Origin: Glacieibacterium arshaanense
GTDB lineage: Bacteria > Pseudomonadota > Alphaproteobacteria > Sphingomonadales > Sphingomonadaceae
DNA length: 64,000 bases
NCBI RefSeq assembly: GCF_004681125.1
Contig: NZ_SIHO01000002.1
Span: forward strand, 722,563-786,562
Direction: 5' to 3'
Positions 9,087 through 15,864 of this stretch are shown here, one piece after another. Position numbers and translations under genes: made by a program. The notes below the pieces were generated by a model. That model ran no database searches. It saw only the letters and a program-made list of their open reading frames with translations, and was not told the DNA's origin. Every line of letters starts with the position of its first letter. Position 1 is the stretch's first letter.

Positions 9087-9160
9087 GGCCCGATGGCGGA
9101 GTGGTGACGTAACGGACTGCAAATCCGTGAACCCGGGTTCGATTCCCGGTCGGGCCTCCA
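9087..9160 (+). tRNA. tRNA-Cys (anticodon GCA)
   Basis: A complete cloverleaf of 74 bases including encoded CCA: acceptor GGCCCGA pairs with TCGGGCC, anticodon stem ACGGA/TCCGT closes the loop CTGCAAA, so the anticodon is GCA, and the T arm contains GGTTCGATTCC. It stands alone between the methyltransferase-like gene and the metallophosphoesterase. No integrated element or duplicated 3' end was seen next to it. Confidence 0.97.
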
Positions 9161-9259
9161 AGACTTTCCAGCCTGTTGAATCGGCAAGTGTGTGCGAGTC
9201 GCCGCGCCTTCACCGATTGATCGTTTCTCCCGGCAGCGGTTTTGCAGTAGCCTCTGCGT

Positions 9260-11251
9260 ATGCCGCAGGATGTCAGTTCCGACCTGTCAATTGAACGGCG
9301 CCATGGCGGGCTGAGCCGGCGCGCTTTTCTGCGCTCGACCGGTGCAGTGCTGGGGGTTGCTGCAGCTGGCGGCGTGTTGCCTGCTCAGGCATGGGCAGGC
9401 GCACTGGCGCGCTACCCGATTGCCACACCTGCCGTCACCACGCGCGAGCGGATGCTGACGTTTCCGGCGAAGCTGACGCCCGGCCTTGCGAAAACCGAAC
9501 TCAACCAGATTTCGCGCTACGACGCGCTGGGCTACGGCGAATGGTCGTTCGGTGCCGGTCTGCCGGTTATGGAGCGGCTCGACCTGATGCCCGCCGGCTA
9601 CGCGCGACCCGCGGGCGGCGCCAAGGCCCGGATGGGGCGGTTCTTCACATTTTCCGATGTCCACATCACCGACAAGGAAGCCCCCAACCAGCTGATCCTG
9701 TTCCAGCAGACCGAGCCGACGGCGGCGACCAACACGTCGATCTATTCGCCGGTGATGCCCTACACCACGCAGGTGCTCGATGCGGCAGTGCAAACGGTCA
9801 ACGACTTGCACAGCCGCGCGCCGTTCGATTTTGGCCTGATGCTCGGGGACGCCTGCAACAACACCGCGTTCAACGAAATCCGCTGGTATGTCGATGTCCT
9901 CGACGGCCAGCGCATCGTGCCGAGCTCGGGCGCGCATCTCGGTACCGACAGCATCGGTTTCCAGAAGCCGTTCCAGGCCGCCGGGCTCGACAAGTCCATC
10001 CCCTGGTATCAGGTGATGGGCAACCACGATCATTTCCTCATCGGCTCGTTCCCCTTCGATGCCGACCCGGCGCTGGGGTTCCGGCAATCCTATACCGCCG
10101 ACCGCGTGTGGTCGGTCGGCAACGCGCTCAAGCCCGATTTTTCGAGCTTTCCGCCGATGTTCGACTACCGGAAGCTCGGGGCTGCGCCGCGTTACTTTCC
10201 GGGCGTGCTCGACGGCGCCAGCGCGAACGCCGACATCATTCATGCCGGCAGCGCCAGTGATCCGGCATTTGCGGGTGGCACGCCGCGCATTGCGCCTGAT
10301 CCGGCGCGCCGGCCGATCCTGCGGGCCGAATGGGTCAACAGCTTCTTCGATACCCAGTCGCACCCGGCCGGGCATGGTTTCAACCGCGGCGCCGGGGCGG
10401 ACGCCGGTTTCACCTGCTACAGCTTCGTGCCCAAGGCCGGGGTGCCGCTGAAGATCATCGTGCTCGATGTCACCCAATCCGAAGCCGACGGGTCGGTCGA
10501 TATCCACGGTCATGGCTACCTCGATGCGCGGCGCTGGGCGTGGCTGCAGGCCGAGCTGGCGCGCGGGCAGGCCGACAACCAGCTGATGATCATCGCCGCG
10601 CATGTCCCCATCGGCGTGTCGCCGGTCGGGTCGAAGATGGAATGGTGGGCGGGCGACGCCGACATGAAGCCCGGGTTCGAAAATGCCGTCGATCTGGCGG
10701 GGCTGGTCGCGACATTGCAGGCGACGCCGAACCTGCTGATGTGGATTGCCGGGCACCGCCATTTCAACACCGTCAAGGCGTTCCCCGCCGCCGCCGGCAA
10801 GCCGCCCGAGCAGGGGTTCTGGCAGGTCGAAACCTCATCGCTGCGCGACTTCCCGCAACAGTTCCGGACGTTCGAAATCAGCCTCAACAGCGATTACAGC
10901 GTGTCGGTCGAGGCGCTCAATGTCGACATCGCGGTGGCCGAGGGTACACCGGCGGCGCAGTCGCGCAAATATGCGGTCGCCGCACAGCAGATCATCGGCA
11001 ACGACCTGCGCTTCAACAGCCCGAATTTCGCGACCGCCGGCGGTCGCGGCACGCTGCCCATCGCCAGCATGGATCCGACACGCCCGCAAAGCGATGACCC
11101 CAAGGCCACCGACCCGAGCAACCGCTTCGTCGATTTATCGGCCGCGACGCCGCCGGTGCCGTATCATGCATCGTGCAACGTCGAACTGGTGCTGCCGCTC
11201 AGCCCGGCGATGGTCAGTCACCTCAGAATGGTATTTCCGGTCGGGCCGTAA
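9260..11251 (+). CDS. Tat-exported calcineurin-like metallophosphoesterase
   Basis: A 663-residue protein with a twin-arginine signal (SRRAFLRS, R20-R21) and hydrophobic core, so it is exported folded with its metals. Dinuclear-metal motifs appear in order: FSDVHITD (D133, H135), LMLGDACNN, GNHD (255-257), AAHVP and GHRHFN. This layout resembles the large periplasmic phosphoesterase group annotated as RPA4764-like; the exact family would need a profile search. Substrate is unknown (nucleotide, phospholipid or phosphoprotein are possible). The gene is monocistronic and convergent with the STAND gene, which ends 8 bases after it. Confidence 0.88.
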   Translation: MPQDVSSDLSIERRHGGLSRRAFLRSTGAVLGVAAAGGVLPAQAWAGALARYPIATPAVTTRERMLTFPAKLTPGLAKTELNQISRYDALGYGEWSFGAGLPVMERLDLMPAGYARPAGGAKARMGRFFTFSDVHITDKEAPNQLILFQQTEPTAATNTSIYSPVMPYTTQVLDAAVQTVNDLHSRAPFDFGLMLGDACNNTAFNEIRWYVDVLDGQRIVPSSGAHLGTDSIGFQKPFQAAGLDKSIPWYQVMGNHDHFLIGSFPFDADPALGFRQSYTADRVWSVGNALKPDFSSFPPMFDYRKLGAAPRYFPGVLDGASANADIIHAGSASDPAFAGGTPRIAPDPARRPILRAEWVNSFFDTQSHPAGHGFNRGAGADAGFTCYSFVPKAGVPLKIIVLDVTQSEADGSVDIHGHGYLDARRWAWLQAELARGQADNQLMIIAAHVPIGVSPVGSKMEWWAGDADMKPGFENAVDLAGLVATLQATPNLLMWIAGHRHFNTVKAFPAAAGKPPEQGFWQVETSSLRDFPQQFRTFEISLNSDYSVSVEALNVDIAVAEGTPAAQSRKYAVAAQQIIGNDLRFNSPNFATAGGRGTLPIASMDPTRPQSDDPKATDPSNRFVDLSAATPPVPYHASCNVELVLPLSPAMVSHLRMVFPVGP

Positions 11252-11259
11252 ATTCTGGA

Positions 11260-13740
11260 TCAGGATATAGGTTCGGCCATGTGTACGGCACCGCCCGAGC
11301 CACGCTTGGCGGGTCGCCCTTCTGCCTTGGGCTTTTCAATGCCCAGCATGTCGTAGAGCGCATCCCGCGCGTCGGTCCATTGCTGCTTCTTGATCTTGTC
11401 AACGGCGATACGCCGATTGGCCTGGGTCGTCATTTCATCAGTGATGCGCTTATCGAGTTCGGCATCTTTCTCCGGATCGATGACTGACCACAACGCAGTG
11501 GCAATATCGATGTATAGCGACATTGCTTCGACGCTATTGGCATCTTTCGCGAGCAACTGTCGCGCCGTCGACTCGGCAAGTTGGTACTTCGCTTTTGCCT
11601 TTTCAGGTGCGTCGGGCTGGTCAGCAGACAGCCAATCACCCCACGCCCGATAGCCTGTGGCGAGGTTGAAAAGGTAGCTCTTGTTGGCCGGCTGCTTCGC
11701 GACGAGATAGCGATCGACAGCGATTACAGCCTGATAGACCGTGTCGGCCCGGTCGGATGCGGCAATCTCTGCGTATTTGGTGAGCGCCGTGCCAAGATTT
11801 TCAAACCAGCTAAAATCATGCGTTTCAATTGCTCTGGCGCGCGCAAAATCGGCTGCGCCACTATAGCTTTTGGCTGCCTGATTGGTTTCGGCATGCATCT
11901 CATCGGTCAGCTTGATGATTTGCTCGTTTGTGCCAGCATCGGCGTCTGCTGCCGTCTGCGCATCGAGAATTGCCGCGTTTTTATCGATCGCGTTGCTGCC
12001 ATGGTCATCGCCGGTGACGATCATTTGCCAGAATTTGTTGCTGTCGGTGAGGTTGCCATTGGCGAGATCGCGATTGAGATCGCTGGTGCGCTTGAGCAGG
12101 TCCTTGCGCGCGGCTGCGGTGCCATCGATCGGATCGAGCTTGCGATAGACCGATGCGACCATCTCGCTGTTCTGCGTCGTTGCCTTCTTGATGGTTTCCT
12201 GAAGCTTGTACGCCGAAATGCTGAGGAACAGCACCGTGCCGGCGACCAGGCCGACGCGGGCGGCGCGCCACGCATACATGCCCCTGACGCTGCGCGTGAG
12301 ATAGCGCATCGCTGCCGCGAAATCGCCGTCGTGTTTCGAATAGCGCGCGGCCCAGCCTTCGGACGGTTTGGCGGCTTTGTTCCAATCGCGCGCCAGCCGC
12401 AATTCGGGGCCTTGCAGCGGGTCGGCGTCCTTGCGGGCATAGCGTGCGGCGCGGTCGACGAGTTCGACATAGCTGTCGCGCGACTTGCGTTCTTCATCTA
12501 CCCAGTCGCGCAGCCGCACCCATTGGCGGATCAGGCTTTCGTGCGAAATGTCGTAGCGCGGATCGTCGGGGCGGCCGTCGGGCGACGGGTGGACGAAACT
12601 GCGGCCATCGGCTTCGTAGCGCGTCATGATGGCTTCGACGGCGGTGCGATCGACGCCGGCGGCGGCGGCGAGTTCGCTGGTCCGCGCCGGGCTGCGGATG
12701 CGCCGGCCGCTCGAATCGGTATCGGTCAGGCGCTTGAAGATGCGTTCGACGGCGACCAGGTCGAGCCCGACCAGCGCCGCCTCGGCGTCCTTATTGAGCG
12801 CGCCTTCCAGTCCGCCAGCGCTATCGAAATGGCGCAGGTCGACGGGGCCGGTGGCGCCTTCGGCGAGCCAGGCGTCCCAGGTCCGCATCAGTGCGTGCTG
12901 GAGCACCGGTAGTCGGTCGAAGCGGTCGCCGAGCGCGTTGAGGACATGGTCGAGCAGCCGCGGCGCAACTTCGGCACCCGCCAGCAGCGCCGGACATTCA
13001 ACCGCATCGCGCAATTGCTCGCGCGTCATCCGCGGCACCAGATAGCGGCCGCGGTTGAGCGCTTCGGGCAGTCCGAAGAACAGGTCGCAGTCACCCAGAA
13101 AGTCGGTGCGCATCGTCAGCACGACATAGACCGGCAGCTCGCGCTGGTCGGCGAGCGTCAGCAGCAGGTCGACAAAGTCGCTGGCTTCGGCCTTGCGGCG
13201 CGCGCGCTCCTTGCGGCGTTCGGGGTCGGCATCGGGCTGGTCGTCGCTGTCGTCATCGCCGCGAAACGCGAAAAGCTCCTCGAACTGGTCGACGAGCACG
13301 AAAAGGTTGGCGTTGGGTTCCAGTCGCGGCCGGATGTAGTCGAGCGCCGCCGGCGTATGCCCGGCGCGTAGCGCGGCTTCGAGCGACTGCGCTGCGGGGC
13401 TGCCCGAATGGGCCTCGGCGTCCGGATCGTCCGACATCGCCGCGACGAGCCCGGCGGCGAGGTTGGCCATCGGCGCGTCGCCGGGCTTGATGCTGACGCG
13501 GCGCCAGCGGTCACGGTCGTGGACCAGAAAGCCGCCCAGCAGTGCCGGTACCAGCCCGGCACGCACCAGAGAGGATTTGCCGCTGCCCGAACTGCCGACG
13601 ACGCCGAGGAAGCGGTTGTTGCCGAGGATCGCCAGCAGCTCCTCGACCTGTGCATCGCGCCCGAAGAAGTACAGGCTGTCGGCCTTGAAGAACGGCCGCA
13701 GCCCGACATAGGGGTTGCGGCGCACCGCCTCGTCACTCAT
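11260..13740 (-). CDS. STAND-type NTPase (nSTAND1) with membrane segment and TPR-like C-terminus
   Basis: An 826-residue protein. The N-terminus (NPYVGLRPF, then YFFGRD) is the usual entry to nSTAND1 NTPases. Walker A is GSSGSGKSS (49-57), Walker B is LFVLVDQFEEL (D151), a sensor-like TMRTDFLG sits at 209-216, and the winged-helix signature DISHESLIRQW at 397-407. A hydrophobic segment at about 494-512 (GLVAGTVLFLSISA) predicts membrane anchoring, and the last 310 residues are alpha-helical with TPR-like repeats, a plausible sensor. STAND proteins act as switches that oligomerise on ligand binding. It lies 27 bases downstream of the CHAT gene on the same strand, so the two likely form one system. 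The C-terminal third is less G/C-biased than the N-terminal part. Confidence 0.9.
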   Translation of the reverse strand: MSDEAVRRNPYVGLRPFFKADSLYFFGRDAQVEELLAILGNNRFLGVVGSSGSGKSSLVRAGLVPALLGGFLVHDRDRWRRVSIKPGDAPMANLAAGLVAAMSDDPDAEAHSGSPAAQSLEAALRAGHTPAALDYIRPRLEPNANLFVLVDQFEELFAFRGDDDSDDQPDADPERRKERARRKAEASDFVDLLLTLADQRELPVYVVLTMRTDFLGDCDLFFGLPEALNRGRYLVPRMTREQLRDAVECPALLAGAEVAPRLLDHVLNALGDRFDRLPVLQHALMRTWDAWLAEGATGPVDLRHFDSAGGLEGALNKDAEAALVGLDLVAVERIFKRLTDTDSSGRRIRSPARTSELAAAAGVDRTAVEAIMTRYEADGRSFVHPSPDGRPDDPRYDISHESLIRQWVRLRDWVDEERKSRDSYVELVDRAARYARKDADPLQGPELRLARDWNKAAKPSEGWAARYSKHDGDFAAAMRYLTRSVRGMYAWRAARVGLVAGTVLFLSISAYKLQETIKKATTQNSEMVASVYRKLDPIDGTAAARKDLLKRTSDLNRDLANGNLTDSNKFWQMIVTGDDHGSNAIDKNAAILDAQTAADADAGTNEQIIKLTDEMHAETNQAAKSYSGAADFARARAIETHDFSWFENLGTALTKYAEIAASDRADTVYQAVIAVDRYLVAKQPANKSYLFNLATGYRAWGDWLSADQPDAPEKAKAKYQLAESTARQLLAKDANSVEAMSLYIDIATALWSVIDPEKDAELDKRITDEMTTQANRRIAVDKIKKQQWTDARDALYDMLGIEKPKAEGRPAKRGSGGAVHMAEPIS

Positions 13741-13767
13741 CGCATTTTGCCTGCGGGCTGAAGGTCA

Positions 13768-15864
13768 TCATTCGGTCGGCTTGTCGGCCGGAAACAGCGC
13801 ATCGACCCAGCTGCGATCACCGTCGCGCAGCGTGCTGATGGCGAGCCGGGCGGCCGAAATCGGCGGTGCCGTGACATTGGCGGCAGCGGCGTATTTGGCG
13901 ACGACCAGCTTGGCGCGCGATTTGACCGCCGAGCGCATGATGGCTACCTGCCGGTTGGCGACCCAGGCCGGATCGACCTCGCCGGCGACGATGACATACA
14001 GCCCGGTGCTGCGCACGGCCTCGTCGAGCGCCGGCAGATTGTCGATCGTTTCGCTGCTGCTGGTGTTAATGTTGGCCTCGACGTGGTTGGTCGCCAGATA
14101 ATCGAACAGGTCGATGGCGCGCTCGGCGTCCTTTTCGTGCGCGTCGATATAGGCGCGATGACCGGCGGCGCCGGCACTGGCAGCAGGCGCGGCAGCAGCG
14201 GCGCGGGCGCGCTTGATTTCGTCGAGCTTGGCGACGATAGCGGCGAGCATCTGGTTCTTGTCGGTGACGACGAATTCGAAGCGTGCCTTGTCGCGCGGCA
14301 TCGCTTCGATCTCGGCGATGCGGTCGGCATAGGCCTTGCCCATGTTGGCCTTGTCGGCTTCGGTGACCAGCACGATCTGCGATTTGGCGAGCTTGAGCCC
14401 GGCTTCGAGCTGCTGCAGCGGATAGGTGCGCAGCGGCTGGCCGTCATCGACATCGATGCGCCGGCCGGCATTGGCGCCGAGCAGATGGATGCACAGATCG
14501 GCCTCGCGCAGCAGCGCATCGACGCCGGCGCTGTAGTTTGTGTCATCGAGCGGGACCTCGGCGACGACGGCGCAATCATCGCGGGCGCCGAGTTCGGCGG
14601 CGAGCGCCTCGTGCTTCTTTTCCCAGTCCTGGTCGGGCGTGGCGAGATAGAGCTTGAGGCGGTCGCTGCCGGCGGCACCCCAGGCCGAGGCCGCTTCAGT
14701 TGCACGGACCGCTGCCGCAGGGGCAGGGGTGGTGATGGTCGTTGCCGGCGCGGCATCGGCCGGCGTAAACAGGTCGCCGCTGTCGGAGCGCATGTAGAGC
14801 ACCGGCGTTGCCCATTCGGGTTGCGCCCCCGAATAGATTGCCTTGCGCGCTTCGGCGACGGCGTAGTCGACCGGGCTGGCGGCGGCGATGCATTTATAGA
14901 AAGTTTCGGCAAACGCGATGGCGGCCCGGTCCGAAATCGGGAACTGCATCGCCAGCACCGCCGGAATTCGTTCGCGCACCAGTGCGGCGGCGACGCCGGC
15001 ATAGGGGTGCGCGCCCGATTTGGTGGCCGTGGTGCCGGTCTTGCAGGCATTCAGGAACACCAGCCGCAGCGGTTCGTCGGCGAGCATCATCGCGAAATCA
15101 TCGGCGCTGACGAAGTCGGGCTGGGCCTCGGCAGTTTCGAGCACAAGGCAGCCGCCGGTATCACCGGCATAGTCGCCGTGGCCCATGTAGTGGAGGACGT
15201 GGAAATCGGCCTCGCGCAGCTTGTCGAGGATTTGCTGGCGCACCGGCGGCGCGTAATCAACGCTGACGCTCGGCAGCTTGGCCCAGCTCGCCTTGATCCG
15301 CGCCAGTTCGTCGTCGAGCCCCAGCCCGGTGGTGCCGTTGGGGTTCGACATGATGACCAGAATGCGCAGCGGCGCGGTGAATGGTTGCGGGTTGAGCGGC
15401 TTTGGCGAATCGAAGACGCGGACCACGGCGCTGCGGTTCGACACGACCAGCGCGCGCTCGCCGCGCTTGCACATCAGTTCCCACGGCAGGCTGGCCACTT
15501 CGGCCATGCCGGTCTGCCGCAGGTCCATCGACAGCCGGATACGGACGCCGGTATCGGGCAGGTTTTCGGCGCGGTCCATGATGGCGGCGAGCCGTTCACC
15601 CACCTGATCCTGGAACAGCGCGGCGTACATGTCGGCACCGTAGTCGGCGGCGGTGCGCGACGGGGCTGCCTGCCCATCCGCGGTCACCTTGCCGATGCCG
15701 CGCGCCGTTTCGGCGACGCCGAATACCGCTTCCGACAGTTCGGCAAGCGTGAACGGCAGCTTGAGCGTCCCGTTGCCGATGCCCGCGTCCGACTGCAGAC
15801 GCACATTATAGACATCGTCCCCGCCGGGCGAGATGACGACGTTGACGTCGAGGTATTTGGTCAT
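13768..15864 (-). CDS. CHAT-domain protease fused to two TIR-like domains
   Basis: A 698-residue protein. Residues about 165-365 form a CHAT (caspase-like) peptidase with the catalytic pair in HYMGHG (H229) and LNACKTG (C274), preceded by SLPWELM, typical of CHAT proteins. After a linker (370-400) comes an alpha/beta domain (LKLYLATPDQDWEKK, then CIHLLGANAG), resembling the DUF4062/TIR-like fold, and a second similar domain (about 569-690; GLYVIVAGEVDPAWV). CHAT proteases cleave partner proteins in bacterial cell-death and defence systems. No signal peptide is visible, so it should be cytosolic. It is first in a two-gene leftward unit with the STAND gene. Assignment of the two C-terminal domains is by pattern only, and NADase activity cannot be claimed. 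Confidence 0.87.
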   Translation of the reverse strand: MTKYLDVNVVISPGGDDVYNVRLQSDAGIGNGTLKLPFTLAELSEAVFGVAETARGIGKVTADGQAAPSRTAADYGADMYAALFQDQVGERLAAIMDRAENLPDTGVRIRLSMDLRQTGMAEVASLPWELMCKRGERALVVSNRSAVVRVFDSPKPLNPQPFTAPLRILVIMSNPNGTTGLGLDDELARIKASWAKLPSVSVDYAPPVRQQILDKLREADFHVLHYMGHGDYAGDTGGCLVLETAEAQPDFVSADDFAMMLADEPLRLVFLNACKTGTTATKSGAHPYAGVAAALVRERIPAVLAMQFPISDRAAIAFAETFYKCIAAASPVDYAVAEARKAIYSGAQPEWATPVLYMRSDSGDLFTPADAAPATTITTPAPAAAVRATEAASAWGAAGSDRLKLYLATPDQDWEKKHEALAAELGARDDCAVVAEVPLDDTNYSAGVDALLREADLCIHLLGANAGRRIDVDDGQPLRTYPLQQLEAGLKLAKSQIVLVTEADKANMGKAYADRIAEIEAMPRDKARFEFVVTDKNQMLAAIVAKLDEIKRARAAAAAPAASAGAAGHRAYIDAHEKDAERAIDLFDYLATNHVEANINTSSSETIDNLPALDEAVRSTGLYVIVAGEVDPAWVANRQVAIMRSAVKSRAKLVVAKYAAAANVTAPPISAARLAISTLRDGDRSWVDALFPADKPTE

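Follow-up and report, generated by a model that had tools for sequence, protein, structure and literature searches.

A CHAT protease gene with a TIR-derived, probably non-catalytic adaptor paired with an nSTAND1 NTPase gene in Glacieibacterium arshaanense: a candidate conflict system

STAND NTPases of the Avs, bNACHT and TIR-NLR types are placed between an effector and a sensor. We here analyzed a gene pair of Glacieibacterium arshaanense, contained in a stretch of 64,000 nucleotides (contig NZ_SIHO01000002.1, positions 722,563 to 786,562; in the following, the window), in which a STAND NTPase and a predicted caspase-like protease of the CHAT type are encoded by two adjacent genes. CHAT proteases serve as immune effectors in SAVED-CHAT, in the TPR-CHAT protein of Craspase and in Borvo (PMC10952713, PMC9729208). 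EACC1 loci consist of two genes with a peptidase and one membrane helix, and some are reported to include nSTAND1 (PMC8195603); the helix is carried by the 5' gene (PMC7159879). In Thiohalocapsa, CHAT and TIR are reported to be combined in one protein, and a periplasmic sensor has been predicted for one STAND-type target (PMC10907252). Finally, DUF4062 domains are described as TIR-like NADases in antiphage defence. The DUF4062 protein Swarozyc contains an auxiliary domain and assembles with the phage portal (PMC13174449, preprint).

Both genes of the pair, and all their features given below, are on the minus strand. The effector gene (13768..15864, 698 amino acids) encodes a CHAT protease with a C-terminal double TIR-like module, and the nSTAND1 NTPase gene (11260..13740, 826 amino acids) encodes a protein that carries a membrane helix and ends in a helical region. 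The two open reading frames (ORFs) are separated by 27 bases. A preliminary description made from the sequence alone had placed both ORFs correctly, and Pfam bore out its CHAT (PF12770, E 6.2e-22, 78.8 bits against a curated cut-off of 24) and nSTAND1 (PF20703, E 1.3e-86) assignments. Compared with a congeneric contig (L015), the ratio of nonsynonymous to synonymous substitution rates (dN/dS) was about 0.09 for nSTAND1 and for the adaptor end of the effector; selection hence acts on both reading frames. The nSTAND1 domain covers residues 10–440 (12421..13713), with Walker A GSSGSGKSS at residues 49–57 (13570..13596) and the Walker B region LFVLVDQFEEL at residues 146–156 (13273..13305). In the effector, the CHAT domain was delimited to residues 121–350 (14815..15504) from Pfam and an alignment with the solved chain 8tl0_A. 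It is predicted to be a protease with a His/Cys dyad formed by His229 within HYMGHGD (codon 15178..15180) and Cys274 within NACKTG (codon 15043..15045). Both residues are conserved without exception in the two CHAT relatives at a Sandarakinorhabdus rubra locus (L014). In the alignment with 8tl0_A they fall on an H and a C, which we take to be the catalytic residues of that chain. An AlphaFold2 model of the whole CHAT protein from its single sequence reached a mean predicted local distance difference test score (pLDDT) of 38 and was discarded.

Within the effector, PADLOC matches were confined to the CHAT part (SAVED_CHAT, E 8.4e-20, residues 165–381; BovA, E 4.8e-7). The match to BovA of Borvo was partial (27.1 bits, residues 217–347 only), and no SAVED domain was found in the effector with Pfam at E 1. 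The CHAT region also resembles HetF, yet scored 78.4 bits against an NCBIfam equivalog cut-off of 1200. In contrast to SAVED-CHAT, Craspase and Borvo, the window CHAT domain lies N-terminal to an adaptor and is paired with a STAND protein; no Cas genes were present among the examined neighbours, where no dedicated CRISPR search was made. Two genes, a peptidase and one membrane helix are shared with EACC1, but the 5' gene of the window pair lacks a membrane helix, with no 19-mer of the effector reaching a hydrophobicity of 1.6. By profile, the pair is not SAVED-CHAT, Borvo or HetF, and by the lack of a helix in its 5' gene it is not EACC1. Unlike in Avs, bNACHT and TIR-NLR, the effector is on a separate gene and would be connected via a TIR-derived domain pair; moreover, the STAND protein has a membrane helix, and its PADLOC matches were weak and confined to the P-loop (mad3, mad8). 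The Swarozyc-type DUF4062 NADases have the TIR-like family in common with the window module, but use a Glu that is not found in the module.

The relatives of the module became visible through the NTPase. Effector residues 395–698 alone gave no useful match in direct searches, Pfam and plasmid tblastn included. Genes upstream of nSTAND1 homologues encode TIR proteins whose last 280–300 residues resemble the window module. At six other loci (L035, L037, L042, L046, L062, L063), the double TIR-like module follows a TIR domain, upstream of a related nSTAND1 gene; their hosts include Alphaproteobacteria, Caballeronia, Hymenobacter and others. These loci, to which no established system name could be attached, are like the window in module, gene order and the nSTAND1-membrane helix chassis, and differ in that the effector head is TIR and not CHAT (TIR_2 over cut-off in five of six, L046 below). 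CHAT occupies the place that the TIR head has in the relatives. The architecture, which the preliminary description had been unable to match, hence has relatives. In PADLOC 2023 the TIR-headed loci matched only via TIR heads and P-loops, at best PDC-S66 with E 1.6e-12 (L062).

A four-member profile scored 32.5 bits on the window region and 28.8 bits on the whole window protein. The top score among 1000 shuffles was 7.2 bits, a value that was not exceeded by any other ORF taken from the window or from eight loci. A profile built from six relatives without the window protein gave 43.6 bits for the window (best of 1000 shuffles, 11.6), and leave-one-out analysis recovered all seven members with 35.9 to 116.6 bits. 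When the query was restricted to the NTPase part, three places besides the own genome were found, two of which have a TIR-adaptor gene upstream of nSTAND1, i.e., directly in genome G830 and with one intervening nSTAND1-like ORF of 292 amino acids in G791 (C22). Their adaptors matched a profile built without them at E 3e-19 and 8.5e-15, respectively. The third place (G791, C15) encodes a longer nSTAND1 protein with an N-terminal fusion, a kinase by eye, and no adaptor.

Both module domains can be linked to TIR domains by profile. Domain 1 covers residues 402–567 (14164..14661) and domain 2 residues 568–698 (13771..14163). The preliminary description had called these domains TIR-like; with Pfam, the window module itself matched neither TIR nor DUF4062, and this part of the proposal was borne out via the relatives, five of six of which matched, all below curated cut-offs. 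Among the seven members, four matched TIR_2 and three DUF4062, five members in all, with best E values of 3.1e-5 and 2.5e-4 and a weakest of 0.16; the window and L042 matched neither. These matches sit at two places of the module, around residues 5–73 and 160–278. In hhalign comparisons with a profile of 15 TIR domains, each a single comparison without an unrelated control profile, domain 1 obtained a probability of 84.7 (E 6.6e-6) and domain 2 of 93.4 (E 2.6e-7). The fold assignment is based on profiles and not on a structure model, because no deep alignment of the adaptor was obtained for modelling. On these profile grounds, we conclude that the module domains descend from the TIR superfamily.

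Of 15 intact TIR domains, 14 retain the catalytic Glu of the WxxxE motif (six of seven heads and all eight others); in the lone exception, the L046 TIR head, a Glu lies one residue away. The catalytic position holds Glu in none of the seven domain 2 copies, where the column reads R in the window (WVANR in place of WxxxE), Q in L035 and L037, F in L046, M in L062, H in L063 and a gap in L042. In domain 1, no Glu is conserved across members, with a less certain alignment. With the catalytic Glu missing from domain 2 of 7/7 members, an adaptor fits better than an enzyme, and the module is probably a TIR-derived, non-catalytic adaptor. This corrects the preliminary description, in which the TIR-like domains were one of two candidates, beside the protease, for activation by the STAND protein.

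To place the NTPases, a tree of 19 nSTAND1 rows was calculated; it omits the near-identical Caballeronia SBC1 plasmid as well as a short hit in G030. Nine rows are adaptor-linked, including L036 (TIR by eye with no Pfam match at E 0.01, and one TIR-like domain after it), which was excluded from the leave-one-out analysis. Four rows lie behind an adaptor-less CHAT gene, three behind another gene (L043, L044, L045), and three are N-terminally extended (L050, annotated helix-turn-helix; L064, kinase by eye; L038, DUF4062-like by eye). The nine adaptor-linked proteins form one clade (90/99) together with three adaptor-less proteins from Bacteroidota, and the four nSTAND1 proteins behind adaptor-less CHAT genes, two of them from the window genome, fall into a distant clade (100/100). 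These latter loci (L017 twice, L018, L021) resemble the window in that a CHAT gene comes immediately before a gene for nSTAND1 plus membrane helix, but their CHAT proteins lack the adaptor and most are accompanied by a C14 caspase-DUF7379 gene. Because their nSTAND1 proteins belong to a distant clade, the pairing of CHAT and STAND probably arose more than once, i.e., by this tree, twice.

We propose, at about even odds (probability roughly 0.5), that the pair is a two-gene, STAND-gated and membrane-anchored conflict system, probably abortive or self-killing, with a CHAT effector coupled via the adaptor. Anatomy, homology and evolutionary pattern are taken here as demonstrated, and we infer every functional step from them. 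The nSTAND1 protein would be anchored in the inner membrane, its NTPase facing the cytoplasm and its variable helical-repeat domain lying on the far side. A trigger acting on the helical-repeat domain would allow the NTPase to bind nucleotide and to cluster, as expected from established STAND biology. The cluster would then recruit the effector through the two apparently dead TIR-like domains, as the conserved adaptor and the gene pairing suggest. Clustering would render the CHAT protease (H229/C274) active, and substrate cleavage would lead to arrest or death. That the STAND protein gates the effector is the best inference from this arrangement. More tentatively, and at somewhat less than even odds, the pair may represent a modular, transmembrane NLR-like chassis in which a dead TIR pair acts as universal adaptor, CHAT or TIR is plugged in, and an exchangeable extracytoplasmic sensor reads envelope attack. 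Within this modular reading, the dead TIR pair might be likened to the CARD or death domains of animals.

The genomic setting bears on whether the pair might instead be a housekeeping or envelope-stress protease, in which STAND would read a physiological signal and CHAT would trim a regulator, with no death or defence. Purifying selection is strong for the NTPase and for the adaptor end (dN/dS ~0.09), the neighbours are metabolic or housekeeping genes, and the CHAT region resembles HetF; these points would agree with such a role, which we nevertheless consider rather unlikely. The HetF score is far below cut-off, and the pair is patchy within the genus, where it occupies a variable slot between hutC and tRNA-Cys (9087..9160, plus strand). 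In G097, apparently the metagenome-assembled genome of L015 (uncultured Polymorphobacter), the pair directly adjoins tRNA-Cys, and on another contig hutC is followed by an ion-channel-like ORF. In G003, hutC is followed by unrelated DNA of 1.85 kb, in which an ion-channel gene lies, and then by a stretch aligning to tRNA-Cys; no CHAT match was found there, i.e., in one of two congeners examined the pair is absent and the slot is filled by other DNA. Relatives are located on plasmids, have a phage integrase nearby (L035) or adjoin a Mutator transposase and are flanked on the opposite side by a similar ORF (L062). Moreover, heads and C-termini are exchanged among relatives. This setting is the pattern of exchangeable, conflict-type genes.

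The membrane topology of the proposed conflict system depends on the segment at residues 493–511 of the nSTAND1 protein (12208..12264), its most hydrophobic 19-mer, preceded by positive charges. With a Kyte-Doolittle score of only 1.56, this segment could alternatively be a buried or peripheral helix of a cytoplasmic STAND sensor with its C-terminus inside. In known STAND proteins, WD40 and TPR domains usually reside in the cytoplasm, which would also suit a cytoplasmic sensor. We regard this as unlikely, since in 19/19 nSTAND1 proteins the most hydrophobic 19-mer is always found behind nSTAND1, with a score above 2 in 11, net positive charge before the helix in all 19, and more positive charge before than after it in 18. 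The preliminary description had been unable to match the helix in the middle of the protein to a named system; its position behind nSTAND1 in 19/19 proteins makes it typical. From the positive-inside charge pattern, the C-terminus is predicted to lie outside the cytoplasm.

The C-terminal region, residues 564–806 (11323..12051), is a putative sensor of helical repeats that may be TPR-like. It had no Pfam match. A two-sequence AlphaFold2 model was all-helical with pLDDT mostly 75–90, and its similarity to TPR and other alpha-alpha repeats (at best Z 14.2 to RabGGTase, 12.8 to the LGN TPR) was in the range usual for helical repeats; Foldseek gave no match at E 0.001 or better. The window C-terminus resembles none of the 18 other nSTAND1 proteins except L015. 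Between window and L015, identity is 96.8% in nSTAND1 and 96.1% in the adaptor end compared with 61.6% in the C-terminus, a divergence as expected of a sensor. Because dS of the C-terminus was 0.90 compared with 0.24 for nSTAND1 (PCMT 0.16, TolC 0.27; NG86, one pair, simple method), both sequence change and exchange with a diverged allele are suggested. TIR-headed relatives end in WD40 (L062, L042) or weak TPR (L063) domains, and others are unassigned. Beside the L035 STAND gene, an ORF (L035 3447–6377) overlaps it by 83 bases and has a signal-peptide-like start (by eye) and weak TPR matches; it could be an exported sensor subunit. As a split-off exported sensor it was not retained, as it showed no convincing similarity to any STAND C-terminus.

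That the TIR-like domains are themselves the effector, by NAD+ cleavage or signalling, and CHAT merely matures or activates them, is very unlikely. In its favour, a role as TIR-like NADases of antiphage defence is described for DUF4062 domains (PMC13174449, preprint), and relatives of the module match TIR_2 or DUF4062 below cut-off; yet domain 2 is without catalytic Glu in 7/7, domain 1 has none conserved, and in the relatives the pair accompanies a separate TIR domain mostly keeping its Glu (6/7).

Several observations weigh against the proposed conflict system. PADLOC reported no whole system for the pair. The preliminary description had proposed to look for a defence island; the examined neighbours are metabolic or housekeeping, with no defence gene among hutC, hutF, TolC, PCMT and metallophosphoesterase, in a check of six window proteins including the pair (Pfam, and the same or a similar set with NCBIfam) with no scan beyond these. 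No substrate gene is visible. The nSTAND1 proteins of L043, L044 and L045 are nested in the adaptor clade yet are without adaptor, and the inactivity of domain 1 is read from its having no conserved Glu. Hydrophobicity of the membrane segment is borderline, with four of 19 homologues, the window included, below 1.6, and in L017a charge is greater after the helix. The CHAT-headed form is known from the window genome only, as the sister contig L015 ends inside the adaptor. Finally, in a phylum scan with the seven-member alignment, 6 of 383 genomes matched, with full-length modules in three (own, G791, G830), all already in the profile, so that no new pair was gained; by eye, the four partial matches (G830 again, G868, G452, G854) look like TIR-domain proteins.

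As this census found full-length adaptors only among alignment members, they are either rare or too divergent for the searches used. The window adaptor alone retrieved one of 296 genomes in an order scan, its own; single-sequence search misses members, because G020 and G054 carry the adaptor yet surfaced only via the STAND query at the same depth. A five-member alignment matched 6 of 337 genomes in a class scan at E 0.01, five of them weakly and partially (15.6–18.9 bits). No relatives were found in viral contigs. In plasmid tblastn, the window adaptor had no useful match and the L037 adaptor none, and the L042 and L046 adaptors matched only their own or near-identical records. A literature search, with subscription papers largely outside it, found no description of adaptor or pair.

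The neighbourhood of the pair differs between congeners. In the window, a metallophosphoesterase gene (TIGR03768; stretch 9161–11251) separates the pair from tRNA-Cys, and it is missing at that place in L015. The end of this stretch (11233–11251) repeats the tRNA 3' end in 15 of 19 bases, 11 of them consecutive, as if inserted.

Further arrangements of CHAT, TIR and STAND genes were noted. A whole-effector search of genome contigs returned two loci. In L014 (969–9885), a caspase-DUF7379 protein, two CHAT-membrane-Sel1 proteins and a TIR-TPR protein are encoded consecutively; identity to the window CHAT protein reaches up to 50% in the N-terminal part, and membrane helix and Sel1 repeats replace the adaptor. 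A Ruegeria CHAT gene with an adjacent ATPase was dropped as an instance of the same pair, its partner being AAA_21/SIR2_2 and not STAND. Alongside the weaker CHAT relatives in G094, G057 and G128, no nSTAND1 gene was noticed in ORF lists, without family searches there. The window genome has two further CHAT and nSTAND1-WD40 pairs (L017, C1:496000–515900), one with a C14 caspase-DUF7379 gene. L018 and L021 are caspase-CHAT-nSTAND1 triads with a TIR-TPR gene nearby, and L090 and L092 encode large single polypeptides in which a CHAT-like stretch comes after a TIR domain (by eye). Near the TIR-adaptor gene, a DUF4231 protein is encoded in L035 (1537–3372, below cut-off) and L042 (1137–2870), a possible third component. 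On a Persicobacter plasmid (L045, 1–11353), the nSTAND1 gene is preceded by one for a multi-membrane HEAT protein, and the surrounding genes, with tail sheath and DUF4255 annotations, may form a contractile injection cluster.

If the proposed reading is correct, one conserved adaptor would explain how STAND switches change the killing enzyme with the switch unchanged, and the adaptor would be a signature for finding such systems. The nSTAND1 protein would be a membrane-spanning STAND sensor reading the periplasm. The natural exchange of TIR for a protease would moreover provide a test case for TIR as a pure assembly module in bacteria. Both weapon and sensor of a modular immune or self-destruct device may thus be exchangeable, with relatives of the window pair carrying a predicted NAD-cutting enzyme in place of the protease.

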